Positions 4,598 to 11,104 of a stretch of DNA of 38,039 nucleotides are shown one piece after another. Origin of the DNA: a virus. Position 1 is the stretch's first letter, and every line of letters starts with the position of its first letter. Where the stretch lies: IMG/VR virus record IMGVR_UViG_3300044577_000012, positions 1 to 38,039 of that record, one strand, 5' to 3'. Both the position numbers and the translations under genes were made by a program. The notes under the pieces were generated by a model. That model did not search any database. It had not been told where the DNA came from and saw only the letters and a program-made list of their open reading frames with translations.

Positions 4598-4995
4598 GCT
4601 TTATTGAACTAAAAGGATTAGATGAAACTAGCGAGCCAAAAGTTGCTCCAGAAGCTGAATACGATCTCTGTATTACGACTGCTAAGCTTACTGAGAAAGA
4701 AGGTAAGCATAACATTATGACGATTATAGAGATTGAAGGAGAGTCGGATTTTGCAAACGTTTTCCACTATATCGCGCTTCCAAGTGAAGATGATGAAGAT
4801 GATAAGAGAAAAGCAAAGCTGTTATTTGCTAAGAGATTCTTCTATCAATTCGGAATCGAAATGGATGGTGGAATTGAGCTGGAACAGCTAGTTGGCAGTA
4901 GGGCACGAGGTAAACTAAAACTGGATGAATACGAAGGAAATCTTAAAAGTGTTCTACAAGTAGATAGATTACCGGCAGAAGTAGAAGAAGGGTAA
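4594..4995 (+). CDS. DUF669-like probable single-strand DNA-binding protein
   Basis: The 133-residue product has an N-terminal segment that opens with a short beta strand, a central run of strands (ITTAKL, IMTIIEIEG), a charged acidic stretch (SEDDEDDKRKAKLLF) and a final strand pair ending at an acidic tail. This is the layout of DUF669 phage proteins, which are OB-fold-like and usually sit next to Sak4-type ATPases. The start overlaps the ATPase stop by four bases. The role as ssDNA-binding protein is inferred from family and context. Confidence 0.7.
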   Translation: MSFIELKGLDETSEPKVAPEAEYDLCITTAKLTEKEGKHNIMTIIEIEGESDFANVFHYIALPSEDDEDDKRKAKLLFAKRFFYQFGIEMDGGIELEQLVGSRARGKLKLDEYEGNLKSVLQVDRLPAEVEEG

Positions 4996-5713: not shown

Positions 5714-5946
5714 CTAAGCAACTTAAAGATATTTTTAAAAGCTTCACTAATATGTCAATAGAGGAGCAGTATGCCAAAATTGAGGAGGCTAGGGATAGCA
5801 GATCAATCGAACGTCCTGCTGTTGCACAACGTCGCAGGAAAAAGGAATCAAAGACTAGTGATAAGAAAAAAGATAAAGCTAGAGATCTCCTCATGAATTT
5901 AACATCAGAAGAGAAGGCTGAACTAATAGCGAAATTAAAGAAATGA
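5710..5946 (+). CDS. Small highly charged protein with conserved acidic tail
   Basis: The 78-residue product has a helical N-terminus, a lysine/arginine-rich middle (residues 40-60) and the ending LTSEEKAELIAKLKK, similar to the end of the 117-residue protein at 1074-1427. The GTG start overlaps the previous stop; an in-frame ATG at 5752 is an alternative. The basic middle suggests nucleic-acid contact and the tail a protein-docking peptide, but both are inference. Confidence 0.55.
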   Translation: MTKQLKDIFKSFTNMSIEEQYAKIEEARDSRSIERPAVAQRRRKKESKTSDKKKDKARDLLMNLTSEEKAELIAKLKK

Positions 5947-6155
5947 CTCGAAAAAAGATAGGATTTGATAAACTAAGAGAAGAATTCCATATGACTGTAG
6001 AAAAAGCAAAAGAAGATCGTAAACCAAAGTCTGAATGGGAAGAACTGATGGAGATTGAAGGTAGATTTTATAGTTGGAGCTATCTTAGTATTCAACAAGA
6101 GGAAGATATTACTTGGCTTATTAAAACATTAAAGGAAAAGATAGAAAATGAATGA
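5943..6155 (+). CDS. Small charged helical protein
   Basis: The 70-residue product is rich in Lys and Glu and predicted to be almost entirely helical, with two tryptophan-containing segments (SEWEEL, YSWSYL). No family is recognised. It overlaps both neighbours (ATGA upstream, eight bases downstream), so it belongs to the coupled operon leading to the ParB/methyltransferase gene. Confidence 0.55.
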   Translation: MTRKKIGFDKLREEFHMTVEKAKEDRKPKSEWEELMEIEGRFYSWSYLSIQQEEDITWLIKTLKEKIENE

Positions 6156-6330
6156 CAGGGATTATTTTTATATAACTGAAGATCAAGAAGTCTATATAAC
6201 ACGATCAAGAGATTCTATGTTATCTTGGCCAGAGCCTTACTATAAAATGGTTGCACAGTTATTAGATGAAGGTTTTGCTGAAATAAGTATTAAAGCTGTA
6301 CATGCTATTAATTCTAGTTGGCCTTTATAA
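6148..6330 (+). CDS. Small protein, unknown function
   Basis: The 60-residue product is aromatic-rich (DYFYITEDQEVYITRSRDS at the N-terminus) and ends in NSSWPL. It has no metal-binding or membrane segment. AAGGAAAAG lies upstream of the ATG, and the stop shares a base with the ATG of the next gene (TAATG). The N-terminal strand pair followed by a helix is consistent with a small alpha/beta fold. The role is unknown. Confidence 0.5.
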   Translation: MNDRDYFYITEDQEVYITRSRDSMLSWPEPYYKMVAQLLDEGFAEISIKAVHAINSSWPL

Positions 6331-7667
6331 TGGACATTAGTTTTATTGATCCAGATGACGTTGAAGTAGGAGAGCGATTCCGCAAAGACTATGCCCTTAC
6401 TGACGACTTCTTAGATACAGTAAGAGAAAAGGGTATCATCCAGCCAATAACTATCAATCAAAATATGGAACTGGTTGCAGGTGGCCGACGTCTGGCAGCC
6501 GTAAAGCATCTTGTTATGCCTACAATCCCTGCGATTATGCGTCAAACAGAGGATGAACTAGACTTAAGAGAATGTGAGTTCATCGAGAATTTCTTCCGAC
6601 AAGACTTAAACTGGCAAGAAAAGAATGCTTCTGTCGCCCGTATTCATGACTTAATGAAAGAGAAGCATGGTGATCACTGGACAATTCGTAAGTCAGCTGA
6701 ACTGATTGGCAGGAGTGCTGGGGGAATAGTAAGATGTTTGCAGATGCACGAAGAGGTCACTAAATTTCCAGCCCTGGCTAAGTTTGATAAAGAGGATGAA
6801 GCTGTTAAAATCTTACGTCAAATGCGAGAGAAAATGGCATCAAATATTCTTGTTGGAAAACATAAAGAGAGAGTTGAAGCATTCCACGGTGGTAATAAAG
6901 AAGAAGAAAATCTAAAAGTTATCTCTGCTATGTATGCTGAAGATCACTTCAACGTTGGTGATGCCTTCATCGGTATGCAAGAAATGGTAGATGATAAGTT
7001 GGAACCACCTATATCATTCGTCGAAGTAGATCCTCCGTATGGGATAAACTTGAAAGAGGTAAAGAAAGGTGATAAGAGTAGAAAGCTGGACAAGTACGAA
7101 GAGATTGAATCTAAAGATTATAAGGCGTTTCTCAAAAAACTTTGTGAACTCTTATATCAGACGACTCCAGCTAATACTAGGGTATGTTTCTGGTTCGGCA
7201 TTGAATGGATATCAGAAGTCAAGACTGCTCTTAGAGACGCGGGATTCAAGCTCGATCCTATCCCGTGCTTATGGACTAAGCGAGCCGGACAAACTAATAG
7301 TCCTGAGCTTTTTCTTGCACGAGCTTGGGAACCTTTCTTCATCGCGTGGAAGGGCGATGGTATCCCGATCCATAATCGAGGAAGGATTAACGTATTCGAC
7401 TTTCCTGGTGTTCCAGCAGCTCGTAAGTGGCACCCTACCCAAAGGCCGATCGAGCTCATGCAAGAAATCCTCAAGACGTTCGCGTGGGAAGGATCTATTT
7501 GTATGATACCCTTTTTAGGATCAGGCGCAACGCTTCTTGCTTGCTATAGAGAGGGAATCAATGGATTCGGATGGGAACTTAACGAAGAGAATAAACAACC
7601 ATTCCTGGCAGCAGTTGAACAAGATATTCAAGAAGTATTAAGTAATGATGGAGGAGAAAATGAATGA
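6330..7667 (+). CDS. ParB-like / DNA methyltransferase fusion
   Basis: The 445-residue protein has two parts. Residues 1-170 form a ParB/Srx-like domain with the box VAGGRRLAAVKH (49-60), the segment ENFFRQDLNWQEKNAS, and a helix-turn-helix around 118-138 (TIRKSAELIGRSAGGIVRCL). Residues 205-445 form an amino-methyltransferase with catalytic DPPY (234-237) and the SAM-binding FLGSGAT (395-401), in the order typical of N6-adenine or N4-cytosine beta-class enzymes. Such fusions occur in phages and probably protect DNA from restriction or regulate it; the target sequence is unknown. The frame extends four codons to TTG 6318, but ATG 6330, coupled to the previous stop, is preferred. No restriction gene is nearby, so it is probably an orphan methyltransferase. 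Confidence 0.85.
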   Translation: MDISFIDPDDVEVGERFRKDYALTDDFLDTVREKGIIQPITINQNMELVAGGRRLAAVKHLVMPTIPAIMRQTEDELDLRECEFIENFFRQDLNWQEKNASVARIHDLMKEKHGDHWTIRKSAELIGRSAGGIVRCLQMHEEVTKFPALAKFDKEDEAVKILRQMREKMASNILVGKHKERVEAFHGGNKEEENLKVISAMYAEDHFNVGDAFIGMQEMVDDKLEPPISFVEVDPPYGINLKEVKKGDKSRKLDKYEEIESKDYKAFLKKLCELLYQTTPANTRVCFWFGIEWISEVKTALRDAGFKLDPIPCLWTKRAGQTNSPELFLARAWEPFFIAWKGDGIPIHNRGRINVFDFPGVPAARKWHPTQRPIELMQEILKTFAWEGSICMIPFLGSGATLLACYREGINGFGWELNEENKQPFLAAVEQDIQEVLSNDGGENE

Positions 7668-7824
7668 AGATAGAGAAATAACATTGGAAGAATACTGTGC
7701 AAAATTACCAGACTTTCATGCTGTTAATAGAGAATTACAATCTTTAAGATGGAAAGAAAAACATCCACTTAGAGAATTTTGGCATCAGTGTCAATTTAAA
7801 ATTCGATTCTGGGGAAGAAAATGA
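7660..7824 (+). CDS. Small basic protein, unknown function
   Basis: A 54-residue frame starts eight bases before the methyltransferase stop, with a very strong GGAGGAG ribosome site. It begins MNEDREITLEEYCAKLPDF and ends in a tryptophan-rich basic segment (FWHQCQFKIRFWGRK). The stop overlaps the next ATG (ATGA). The strong ribosome site and the overlaps on both sides support a real gene; the function is unknown. Confidence 0.6.
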   Translation: MNEDREITLEEYCAKLPDFHAVNRELQSLRWKEKHPLREFWHQCQFKIRFWGRK

Positions 7825-8012
7825 GTGAAATAGAACCTAGTAGCTGTTCAGATGAAGATATTATACAATTCATAGAGAATGTCAAAGGTGAAGATTCTTT
7901 ACATTATAAACATAACTGGATTATAATGAGAGCTCTCAAGATTATATTCAGAGTTTTACAAACATCAGAACTACATGAAGATATGAAAGATAAATGTCTA
8001 AAAGGAGATTAA
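7821..8012 (+). CDS. Small acidic helical protein
   Basis: The 63-residue product is predicted all-helical, starting MSEIEPSSCSDEDIIQFIENV. It overlaps the preceding gene in ATGA, and AAGGAG at its 3' end serves the next gene. No motif is recognised. Confidence 0.55.
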   Translation: MSEIEPSSCSDEDIIQFIENVKGEDSLHYKHNWIIMRALKIIFRVLQTSELHEDMKDKCLKGD

Positions 8013-8013
8013 G

Positions 8014-8307
8014 ATGCAAACAACTAGACCAGAAGGTATGTCAGAGGAACTTGCTGAAATACAAGGTAAGTTAAGAAAGGAACTATTTACTGCTGACAGT
8101 AAAAAAGAATTAGAAAACGCTATGGATGAACGGCTAGAATATCTTACAAAACATAGACGAGAAGTTTTAGTCAGTAGAACACAAATAGAACCTGAGGCTA
8201 TTCCATTAGTTATAGCAGACTTTAGCGCAAAAATAATTATGGCTCATGATAGAGGGCATAGAAAAAGATTAAAGAAGGAAGTGATTAAACTAATAGAGAA
8301 GTTATGA
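8014..8307 (+). CDS. Small helical protein, unknown function
   Basis: The 97-residue product is charged and largely helical, with a strand-like VLVSRTQIEPEAIPLVIADF in the middle and a lysine-rich helix at the end. The start has a near-consensus AAGGAG. Its stop overlaps the polymerase exonuclease gene in ATGA, so it is co-translated with replication genes. No family is recognised. Confidence 0.55.
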   Translation: MQTTRPEGMSEELAEIQGKLRKELFTADSKKELENAMDERLEYLTKHRREVLVSRTQIEPEAIPLVIADFSAKIIMAHDRGHRKRLKKEVIKLIEKL

Positions 8308-9329
8308 CTTTCCTACCTGATACAAGTACTGGCCTTATTCAAGGTATAGGAAAAGCCAACGCTGACATAATGATTGTCGGTGATTGTCCTTCCGTAGCTG
8401 CTATTAAAGAACATAAGCCTATAGCTCCACCAGTTGAGACTGTATTAGAAGGATGCCTACATCAAGCTGGACTGATTAAGAGCGAGGTGTTTATAACTAA
8501 TCTTATTAAGGATGATACCAGAGTTGAGAAGTATTGGAAGGAAAGGACTAAGCAGGTCCTGCAAAATATAGATCACTATGTAAAAGTTTTAGAAGAAGAA
8601 ATAAAAAGTATTAAACCTAAAGTAATAGTTACAATGGGAGAGTTGCCATCATATGTTCTAACAGGTAACGGAGCTACAACTAAAACAAGGGGTTATCCTT
8701 TTACATATAGAGAAGATACTAGATGGAATGTCTTTAGTCCTGATCTATTTAGTATAGTCATACCTATTCTTCATCCATCCAAGATGATATGGGGTAATTA
8801 TATCTGGCGATACTATCTAAGTCATGACTTAACTAAAGCTAGGAAGTTAGCAGCAAATCCTGAGCTTTTACATAAACCAGATATAGAAACTTATATACCT
8901 GAATCATTTGAGGAAGCTAGAGTAATATTAGAGTGCTTTCTTGATGATGAAAAGTTAAGTATTGATATTGAAGTTAATAATTTTGAAGTAAGCTGTATTG
9001 GATTCGCTAACGATGTTGACTTTGCCGTATCTATTCCTATAGATATGAGATGGACAGTACAAGAAGAAGTTGAACTATGGAACGGTATTGCCAGAATTAT
9101 GGGAGACCCTGATATAATTAAGATAGGTCAGAACTTTATCTTTGATATACAATTTCTAGCTCAGAAAATGAATATCATAACTCGTGGCCCTATCATAGAT
9201 ACAATGATGAGTCACAGTATATTATATCCGGACTTTCTTAAATCATTAAACTTTCTAGCAAGTATACATACGATGCAACCACGATGGAAAGATATGGTTA
9301 GCTTTAAAGATATTAAAGAGGATAGCTGA
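8304..9329 (+). CDS. DNA polymerase A, N-terminal part: UDG-like domain plus 3'-5' exonuclease motifs I and II
   Basis: Residues 20-175 of 341 look like a uracil-DNA-glycosylase superfamily domain (IMIVGDCPS, FITNLIK, VIVTMGELPSYVLTG, ILHPSKMI), probably without glycosylase activity since the usual catalytic loop is not clear. Residues 200-320 carry the proofreading exonuclease: motif I Asp221-x-Glu223 in SIDIE, and motif II Asn277 to Asp281 in GQNFIFD. The exonuclease stops before motif III, which lies at the start of the gene at 9584. The frame is closed by TGA directly before a small unrelated gene. The two proteins presumably assemble to form the full polymerase. UDG-like N-terminal domains occur in some phage family A polymerases. 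Confidence 0.8.
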   Translation: MTFLPDTSTGLIQGIGKANADIMIVGDCPSVAAIKEHKPIAPPVETVLEGCLHQAGLIKSEVFITNLIKDDTRVEKYWKERTKQVLQNIDHYVKVLEEEIKSIKPKVIVTMGELPSYVLTGNGATTKTRGYPFTYREDTRWNVFSPDLFSIVIPILHPSKMIWGNYIWRYYLSHDLTKARKLAANPELLHKPDIETYIPESFEEARVILECFLDDEKLSIDIEVNNFEVSCIGFANDVDFAVSIPIDMRWTVQEEVELWNGIARIMGDPDIIKIGQNFIFDIQFLAQKMNIITRGPIIDTMMSHSILYPDFLKSLNFLASIHTMQPRWKDMVSFKDIKEDS

Positions 9330-9330
9330 T

Positions 9331-9579
9331 ATGAAATATAGAAAGAAACCAATTGAAGTAGAAGCCTTCCGATGGAATGGAACTGCTGAGTCACATAATT
9401 GGTTACGGGAATGGACTAATGGAAAGGTAAATCTTGTTACAGAGGGTAGGCTTCAGGTATTAACTTTAGAGGGTGCAATATATGCGTCAGTTGGTGATTG
9501 GATTATTAAGGGTATACAAGGTGAGTTCTATCCATGCAAGCCTGATATATTTAAGAAAACTTATGAATTAAGTCTATAA
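9331..9579 (+). CDS. Small conserved phage protein inserted inside the polymerase gene
   Basis: The 82-residue product begins MKYRKKPIEVEAFRWNG and ends GDWIIKGIQGEFYPCKPDIFKKTYE, a pattern I recall from a widespread phage and prophage protein of unknown function, found in many genomic positions. Here it sits between the two halves of the DNA polymerase, one base after the stop of the first half and four bases before the ATG of the second. It has a good AGAGGAT ribosome site. It has no homing-endonuclease motif and no intein or intron sequence around it, so it looks like cargo that split the polymerase rather than a self-splicing element. Confidence 0.8.
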   Translation: MKYRKKPIEVEAFRWNGTAESHNWLREWTNGKVNLVTEGRLQVLTLEGAIYASVGDWIIKGIQGEFYPCKPDIFKKTYELSL

Positions 9580-9583
9580 TAAT

Positions 9584-11104
9584 ATGACCTACCGAACGTC
9601 AGATGAAATGCTAACTTACAATGCCCTCGACTGTGCGGGTACATGGCAATGCGCTGACTCATTCTTCTCTGAGATAGAGGATGGATACCGAGAGACATAC
9701 GATCATACTATCTCCTTATACGGTCCTCTGATCTACATGATGACTCGTGGTATTAGAGTAGATCATGATAAGTTAGCTAAAGTTAAGAAGGAAGTAGATA
9801 GGCAGTTACTAAGCTTGGAAGAACAAATAACTGAACGCTGCGGCAGATGGGTTAATCCATTATCTCCTAAAGACTGTCAAACATACTTTTATATCGAAAA
9901 GAAAATACCACCATATACTAAGTATAGTAAACAAACCGGTAAGAGTTCTATCACGACTGATGATAAAACCTTACAACGTATAACTAGAGGTACATCAGCA
10001 CGCAAGGGCTTATTTGAAGCAAAGCTCATGCAAGACTACAGACGACTTAAAAAGCTAAAAGGAACATACTTAGACATAGTCTTTGATACCGATAGTAGGA
10101 TGCGTTGTAATTATAAGCCTCGCGGAACTAAGTTCGGACGCCTATCGAGTACTAAGACAATCTTCGGAACTGGTATGAATATGCAAAATCTGCCAGAAGC
10201 TTTTCTCGGTTTTCTTATTGCGGATCTAAATTGCATATTCATAGAATTAGATTTACGTAGGGCTGAATGGGTAGTAGTGGCTTATGACTCAGGCGATGCT
10301 AATATGCTTCATGCTATTAAGACTGATTTAGATGTACATTCTTATACAGCTAGTCAAATGTTTGGAATACCTATTGAAGCTGTTAAGTTTGAAGATAAGA
10401 TATTAGGTCATATTGGTGACCCAGAAGAAATAAAAAAGAAACGCCCATTGATAAAGGAGCTTGATACTTATAAGGATAACTGGATGCCACGCACAATGTC
10501 TATGCGGCAATGTGGAAAGAAATCAAATCACGGGTTGAACTATGGAGAAGGAAAAAAGAAATTTGCACTCGATAACGAGATCACAGAAAAGGAAGCTGAG
10601 GTTGTTGTTGAAAGATATCACGGAATCTATCCTGGTATTAGACGAAACTACGAGCGAATACAAACTCAGCTCGGAACCGATCGCACTCTCACTAATTGTT
10701 TCGGACGGAAATGCCGCTTTCTTGATAGATGGAACGACGACCTCTTCAAGTCAGCTTATAGTTTCAATTCGCAAAGTACCGTGGGGGAGATTATCAATAG
10801 AGGGATGGTGTCAATCTATAATTCAGAGGATACAGCACTTGCTGATTGGGAGATTCTCAGACAAGTCCATGACTCCATTAATTTTCAAGCACCTACTAGA
10901 CACGCCAATAAACTCGCTATCGGAATTCGAACTGCCGCAAGAGACCTTTCGCCAAGCCTTACAGCGTCTGGCCGTGAGTTCACGATCGCCGTCGATTGCA
11001 AAATCGGATACTCCCTCGACAGAATGAAAGAAATAGAAATCACTGATACAAGCACACTGACTAAGTCTATAGAGAGAGCTATCAGTGAGCTTAAGGAGAC
11101 TTGA
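9584..11104 (+). CDS. DNA polymerase A, C-terminal part: exonuclease motif III plus polymerase domain
   Basis: The 506-residue product opens with exonuclease motif III, Tyr12 to Asp16 in TYNALDC, which completes the proofreading domain begun at 8304. The polymerase follows: FGRLSS (184-189), motif A Asp223 and Glu228 in LDLRRAEW, motif B Arg308, Lys312 and Tyr320 in RQCGKKSNHGLNYG, and motif C His429-Asp430 in QVHDS. Aligning motif B with E. coli Pol I puts His316 at position 762, where Phe, Tyr or Leu is usual. Motif C reads HDS instead of the common HDE. No strong ribosome site precedes the ATG, so translation is probably coupled to the small gene upstream. It is the main replicative enzyme. 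Confidence 0.9.
   Translation: MTYRTSDEMLTYNALDCAGTWQCADSFFSEIEDGYRETYDHTISLYGPLIYMMTRGIRVDHDKLAKVKKEVDRQLLSLEEQITERCGRWVNPLSPKDCQTYFYIEKKIPPYTKYSKQTGKSSITTDDKTLQRITRGTSARKGLFEAKLMQDYRRLKKLKGTYLDIVFDTDSRMRCNYKPRGTKFGRLSSTKTIFGTGMNMQNLPEAFLGFLIADLNCIFIELDLRRAEWVVVAYDSGDANMLHAIKTDLDVHSYTASQMFGIPIEAVKFEDKILGHIGDPEEIKKKRPLIKELDTYKDNWMPRTMSMRQCGKKSNHGLNYGEGKKKFALDNEITEKEAEVVVERYHGIYPGIRRNYERIQTQLGTDRTLTNCFGRKCRFLDRWNDDLFKSAYSFNSQSTVGEIINRGMVSIYNSEDTALADWEILRQVHDSINFQAPTRHANKLAIGIRTAARDLSPSLTASGREFTIAVDCKIGYSLDRMKEIEITDTSTLTKSIERAISELKET

Follow-up and report, generated by a model that had tools for sequence, protein, structure and literature searches.

We found that the family A DNA polymerase encoded in a stretch of viral DNA is divided between two genes, and that this split of a proofreading polymerase is real, conserved and recurrent, with replaceable cargo (i.e., the genes lying between the two halves) at its junction. 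The stretch, referred to below as the window, comprises all 38,039 bases of the IMG/VR virus record IMGVR_UViG_3300044577_000012. Three open reading frames (ORFs) of 341, 82 and 506 amino acids follow one another on its plus strand (cf. Table 1), with a single base (9330) between the first two and four bases (9580-9583) between the last two. The first ORF (N half) carries a uracil-DNA glycosylase (UDG)-like domain followed by exonuclease motifs I and II, and the third (C half) holds motif III at residues 12-16 and polymerase motifs A to C. Both the layout and a break between motifs II and III that keeps their order are as the first-pass annotation of this sequence had described them; it was right that the split is real, and it missed the UDG-like domain, the recurrence of the break and the cases without any insert. 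The protein pair belongs to family A by its PF00476 domain together with motifs A, B and C, and its DEDDy set is complete across the two chains (D-x-E in motif I, D in motif II, Y-x3-D in motif III). We consider it probable that the enzyme is a family A polymerase, bearing a UDG-like domain at its N-terminus, made as two polypeptides that dock, that the cut, in a flexible loop between motifs II and III, is linked to an HNH endonuclease, and that the junction serves as a site for cargo.

A conserved break in related polymerases

Searches for relatives were pattern-based, and stop-to-stop frames were scanned with a profile made from polymerases of both kinds, split and unsplit. In total, 232 loci were gathered, several from the same contigs, and collapsing those at least 97% identical over shared columns left 143 non-redundant loci; counts of loci are samples, i.e. 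at least the numbers given, rather than a census. Forty-five of the 143 share the window's cut in the linker that leads to motif III (site A; columns about 362/365 of the profile), another 29 are cut immediately ahead of polymerase motif A (site B; columns about 577/579), 52 are unsplit, and 17 are partial, distant or unclassed. What had first been presented as a one-off interruption is therefore a recurrent arrangement, among polymerases that typically share about 46% identity (median pair of split enzymes). Site-B examples include L050, L058, L079, L215 and L148 (MEP401; 6111-8221).

The five acidic and tyrosine residues of the exonuclease (D, E, D, Y, D) are all present in 45/45 site-A and 29/29 site-B loci, and the polymerase motif residues are intact in each of the 42 site-A loci whose contig reaches them. 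Relatives with missing motifs, named by the first-pass annotation as the mark of a decaying gene, were looked for among the 45 and not seen. The ratio of nonsynonymous to synonymous divergence (dN/dS) could be used in three site-A pairs, the dS of whole halves being saturated in the other three. It was 0.009/0.219 (about 0.04) for the N half and 0.037/0.612 for the C half of L105/L106, 0.080/1.72 (about 0.05) and 0.056/1.49 for L017/L018, and 0.080/1.10 (about 0.07) and 0.073/1.74 for L102/L113. Furthermore, pairwise identities of the N half and of the C half correlated at 0.883 in split polymerases (820 pairs, 41 rows) and 0.886 in polymerases not split but divided at the same column (1378 pairs, 53 rows including L042, on which see below), so that the two chains evolve like one enzyme; these identities gave no sign of independent reassortment of halves. 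By such comparisons we showed the cut to be old and conserved, with catalytic residues kept and with both halves under purifying selection and diverging together.

That the split reflects a decaying gene or an error of assembly or sequencing is scarcely credible. Some contigs are indeed short fragments, and one unsplit-type polymerase, L042, carries a single in-frame TGA (4968-4970) in the same loop, but it was dropped as not being a true split, and the break recurs in 45 non-redundant loci, among them the GenBank record of the cultured phage Kuura, with complete catalytic residues and strong purifying selection. L042 was initially assigned to site A and later dropped; it still stands among the 37 site-A rows of the 103-row tree and of the linker analysis. 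Its TGA may mark a split in the making or a stop that is recoded, or it may be an error.

The linker was measured from a conserved YWK-type triplet to the tyrosine of motif III in 35 of the 37 split rows (all except L004 and L042). The first half ends in a tail of 11-15 residues and the second begins with a lead of 2-15, with a median sum of 21, compared with 10-23 residues (median 18) in 61 rows that are unsplit or split at site B. The split therefore cost the polymerase little or no sequence, as the first-pass annotation had proposed. The lead of the window's C half is 11 residues from the first ATG (9584) and was entered as 2 in the range above, counted from a later ATG. In the structural model of the unsplit relative L026, which matches the Klenow fragment (1kfs_A; Z 32.8, root-mean-square deviation 3.9, 551 residues aligned), only two stretches have a predicted local distance difference test score (pLDDT) below 50; one of them, loop 352-361, directly precedes the helix bearing motif III (362-390). 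The AlphaFold2 (AF2) model of the window's N half has a mean pLDDT of 87.6, and only its last eight residues (334-341) fall below 50.

Together, the sequence comparisons strongly imply assembly from two chains. Judging from the sequences and models, the chains would fold separately and then dock: the UDG-like domain would come from the N chain, as would the exonuclease sheet bearing the acidic residues of motifs I and II, and the first helix of the C chain, covalently part of the polymerase, would supply the tyrosine and aspartate of motif III. With motifs I and II on one chain and motif III on the other, the proofreading site would be complete only in the complex. The earlier claim that the proofreading fold has to come together from two chains is supported by the motifs of all 45 loci, the dN/dS values and the L026 model. 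We considered whether the N chain might be mainly a separate UDG-like/exonuclease protein and the C chain, alone, an exonuclease-free polymerase. Each product has its own start codon, and their levels could differ; however, 45/45 C halves retain motif III, which could serve no purpose in the absence of motifs I and II, and the co-divergence of the halves equals that of unsplit enzymes, which makes such separate roles very unlikely.

Trees were built without rows of fewer than 450 filled columns and without a few distant or odd loci (L112 was too short for the 103-row tree). Of the 37 rows labelled site A in the 103-row tree, 32 formed one starred clade that contained no unsplit row; L118, L124 and L127, L004 (Kuura) and L042 lay outside it. 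A 130-row FastTree placed 40 of 44 site-A rows in a starred set of 42 (these 40 and two partial loci), and the other four, except Kuura, joined this set without support. Caulobacter phage Kuura (OQ067476), which is cultured, has the same break (Kuura_029 / Kuura_028+027 / Kuura_026). Forcing it together with the window's clade was rejected by the approximately unbiased (AU) test (p = 4.2e-5, or 4e-117 without the clade of three rows), although Kuura is a long branch; a shared origin of the two breaks was thus rejected, and the same loop has been cut at least twice. Site-B polymerases form a main clade, with Vibrio phage VS-ABTNL-3 apart from it; MEP401 is also cut at site B.

Exchangeable genes at the junction and the origin of the break

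Site-A spacers measured from -4 to 1671 nucleotides and contained no gene at 7 loci, one at 20, two at 12 and three at 6. At the 7 loci without a gene the spacer was zero to -4 bases long. Both kinds of relative thus exist, 38 of the 45 with spacer genes and 7 without, and the earlier supposition that the small gene splits the polymerase is not supported, since the break occurs without it and the cargo is replaceable. Site-B spacers were 164 to 2660 nucleotides long and none was empty. Genes in the spacers are packed edge to edge, with many overlaps of 1 or 4 bases, and median ORF coverage is 1. The 62 genes called in site-A spacers belong to largely unrelated families; the calls were mechanical and some are probably wrong. 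For instance, a 60-residue call in the L001 spacer is probably wrong, a membrane protein of 43 residues in another frame being likelier. Named products include a dATP/dGTP pyrophosphohydrolase, a helicase, a dCMP deaminase, a tail-collar domain protein and HNH proteins at site A, and an M15 peptidase and a GH25 lysozyme at site B. Turnover can be followed between close relatives. L105 and L106 are 94.9% identical over 2,992 bases of DNA up to the stop codon of the N half; past it, their spacers start with unrelated sequence, and 89% identity resumes late in the spacer. The L102 spacer has an extra gene, related to that in the L105 spacer, which its neighbor L113 lacks. Judging from these alignments, the differences within both pairs are recent gains and swaps.

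A self-splicing intron holding the small ORF, with one protein made after RNA splicing, is a highly implausible explanation. Introns in phage polymerase genes are known, and the authors of PMC10580990 raised this possibility for the MEP401/402 site-B split while calling the matter unknown. Nevertheless, 7 of 45 loci have spacers of zero to -4 bases, which rule out an intron there, Rfam gave no intron match in the window region or, at the gathering threshold, in 26 loci, the spacers are filled by ORFs, and the N tail and C lead already give a full-length linker. In these loci no group I or II intron was thus seen to interrupt the polymerase gene. A split intein has no room at the junction, where the N tail and C lead have a median of 21 residues in all (no intein profile was run). 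In both respects the first-pass annotation was upheld.

We also considered whether the protein encoded in the spacer, instead of being a passenger, acts as a third subunit of the enzyme, linking the two chains or regulating them. In favor of this, 8 of 16 site-B loci examined share one family of proteins of 71-83 residues, in a class of 67-83 residues; nearly all spacer genes were seen only in spacers, though the loci examined span only a few kb and absence elsewhere is therefore weakly tested; and proteins ending near the C-terminus in C-x2-4-C are encoded by 16 of the 62 site-A cargo genes (16 of 45 loci) versus 0 of 57 at site B. The latter proteins form several groups (L003, L013, L017, L018, L021, L022, L033, L076, L092, L095, L096, L102, L106, L113, L150 and L151). 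However, seven of the 45 site-A loci do without any spacer gene, 78 spacer genes fall into as many as 48 groups that include the deaminase, helicase, pyrophosphohydrolase and lysozyme mentioned above, and the family of the window's own cargo, PHROG 419, is represented in 777 of 50,697 phage records. A third subunit is therefore unlikely.

HNH genes occur in 4 of the 45 site-A spacers, a Pfam scan having covered part of the spacer genes: those of L019, L159 and L187 were identified by Pfam, and that of L022 by PHROGs only (6.3e-31), with no Pfam match. Among site-B spacers, 2 of 29 (L050 and L055) encode proteins with an HNH-like C-terminal part. The last part of the HNH gene of L022, KDSVKFNDIKENS, repeats the N-half tail; this second copy matches the end of the locus's own N half at 26 of 36 nucleotides and those of L076 and L013 at 31 of 39, and such a duplicated tail is as expected had an endonuclease entered the N half at its 3' end. 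As the first-pass annotation stated, the window's own spacer has no homing endonuclease, but HNH genes stand in the same spacer of these four relatives. These findings led us to propose that an HNH-type homing endonuclease either caused the break or was the first to exploit it, and that the junction, lying within a compact co-directional operon, may since have been a permissive landing site for the gain, exchange and loss of unrelated small genes.

Several observations weigh against this picture of docking chains, an HNH-linked break and a cargo site: (i) HNH genes were found neither in the window's spacer nor in 41 of the 45 site-A spacers, so that the endonuclease origin of the break is something we infer, and (ii) HNH genes are also present elsewhere in these loci; (iii) the window's C half has no clear ribosome-binding site, which leaves its route of translation not evident; and (iv) a single origin of the main clade and L118/L124/L127 was neither shown nor rejected (AU p = 0.208). 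A candidate ribosome-binding site is present in the N-half tail of 29 of 37 loci, but this number was not significant against synonymous recoding (mean 23.9, maximum 32, 500 draws), and codon-level selection for such a site in the tail was rejected.

No re-fused polymerase was seen inside the main site-A clade, even where the ORFs only touch. In L098, the halves are parted only by a TAG followed directly by an ATG in the same frame (5917-5922), so readthrough could yield a fused enzyme. It is conceivable, if distinctly doubtful, that proofreading is detachable, the C chain alone acting as a fast, error-prone enzyme and the complex of both chains as a proofreading and perhaps uracil-sensing one, with translation through the exchangeable spacer determining how much of each is made. 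If so, the split would be kept because the mutation rate is tuned, and this would explain the lack of re-fused genes in the main clade.

Features of the window locus

The positions of the features are given in Table 1. Foldseek returned a family 4 UDG and UdgX as the best matches for the UDG domain of the N half, and Pfam identified DNA_pol_A_exo1 (PF01612, 8.9e-8) in the same protein. The 82-residue cargo protein had no Pfam match above the cut-off. The two polymerase halves differ in guanine-cytosine (GC) content (0.348 in the N half versus 0.407 in the C half; 0.252 versus 0.370 at third codon positions). Upstream of the polymerase lies a gene for a ParB-like domain fused to a DNA methyltransferase (6318-7667), and similar genes stand upstream of the polymerase in several relatives; the downstream neighbor is a primase-like gene. 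In-frame inserts of about 300 residues, probably inteins as judged from sequence, are found near motif B (profile columns 639-676) of L035, L041, L053 and L075, two of which are also split at site A.

Table 1. Positions of the split polymerase and its elements in the window
Feature	Position	Strand	Basis
N half of polymerase: UDG-like domain and exonuclease motifs I and II (341 aa)	8304..9329	+	Pfam, AF2 model
UDG-superfamily domain, residues 14-162 of N half	8343..8789	+	PF03167, 2.3e-12; Foldseek
Exonuclease motif I, D221-x-E223, SIDIEV	8964..8972	+	Invariant in alignments; D, E in 45/45 site-A loci
Exonuclease motif II, N277..D281, GQNFIFD	9132..9146	+	Invariant in alignment; D in 45/45 site-A loci
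GAGGA in N-half tail, plausible ribosome-binding site for cargo gene	9318..9322	+	Sequence
Cargo gene (82 aa), PHROG 419, annotated as unknown function	9331..9579	+	PHROG match, 7.7e-34
C half: motif III helix, then polymerase domain (506 aa)	9584..11104	+	DNA_pol_A PF00476, 1.3e-44
Exonuclease motif III, Y12-x3-D16 of C half, YNALD	9617..9631	+	Invariant in alignments; Y, D in 45/45 site-A loci
Polymerase motif A, D223..E228	10250..10267	+	Alignment; second recurrent split site just upstream
Polymerase motif B, R308..Y320	10505..10543	+	Alignment; four related loci with nearby in-frame insert
Polymerase motif C, H429 D430	10868..10873	+	Alignment

Comparison with known split polymerases

An essential and catalytically demanding fold would here run as two chains, with the active site itself divided, and a polymerase gene serves as a gene-capture site. 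Such polymerases offer a natural system in which to study how enzymes become fixed in a split state, why they are left unrepaired and whether proofreading is separable. The evidence from site A also argues against the printed intron reading for the neighboring case of MEP401/402, and the cultured phage Kuura, which shares the window's break although it is distant and independent, makes the split polymerase testable. The words "split" and "exonuclease" are not present in the main text of the Kuura isolation paper (PMC9959647), and in the open-licence literature we found no report of a family A polymerase (PolA) whose break falls between exonuclease motifs II and III.

Split phage polymerases as such are already known, from the published passages cited here, in the T4-like family B polymerases (PolB) and in the PolA of MEP401. 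As described in the pertinent part of PMC2988022, gp43A and gp43B of phage 25 co-purify and are active, so the gp43A/gp43B polymerase of Aeromonas phages 25 and 44RR resembles the window's enzyme in working as two chains, but it belongs to family B, and neither rotating ordinary cargo genes nor the position of its break relative to the exonuclease motifs are described in that part. The same source gives Aeh1 nrdA/MobE and T4 topoisomerase/mobA as cases in which an endonuclease has inserted into a part of a gene that is critical for function, and for nrdA the split products were shown to reassemble; these are other enzymes, and each has one endonuclease rather than exchangeable cargo. In MIJ3 (PMC6892783, passage on its PolB), a polymerase in two ORFs likewise surrounds an intervening gene, but there a putative split intein would rejoin the chains, whereas no intein ends fit the window's junction. 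MEP401 and MEP402, phages of OM43, have a family A polymerase with a small unknown ORF between its two genes (PMC10580990, relevant section), but in MEP401 gp13 ends in LFLSRYGE and gp15 begins with MILNADAKALEW, i.e. the cut is at site B and leaves the proofreading domain whole. As far as these sources go, gp43A/gp43B is the nearest proven two-chain phage polymerase, and MEP401/402 is the nearest PolA case.

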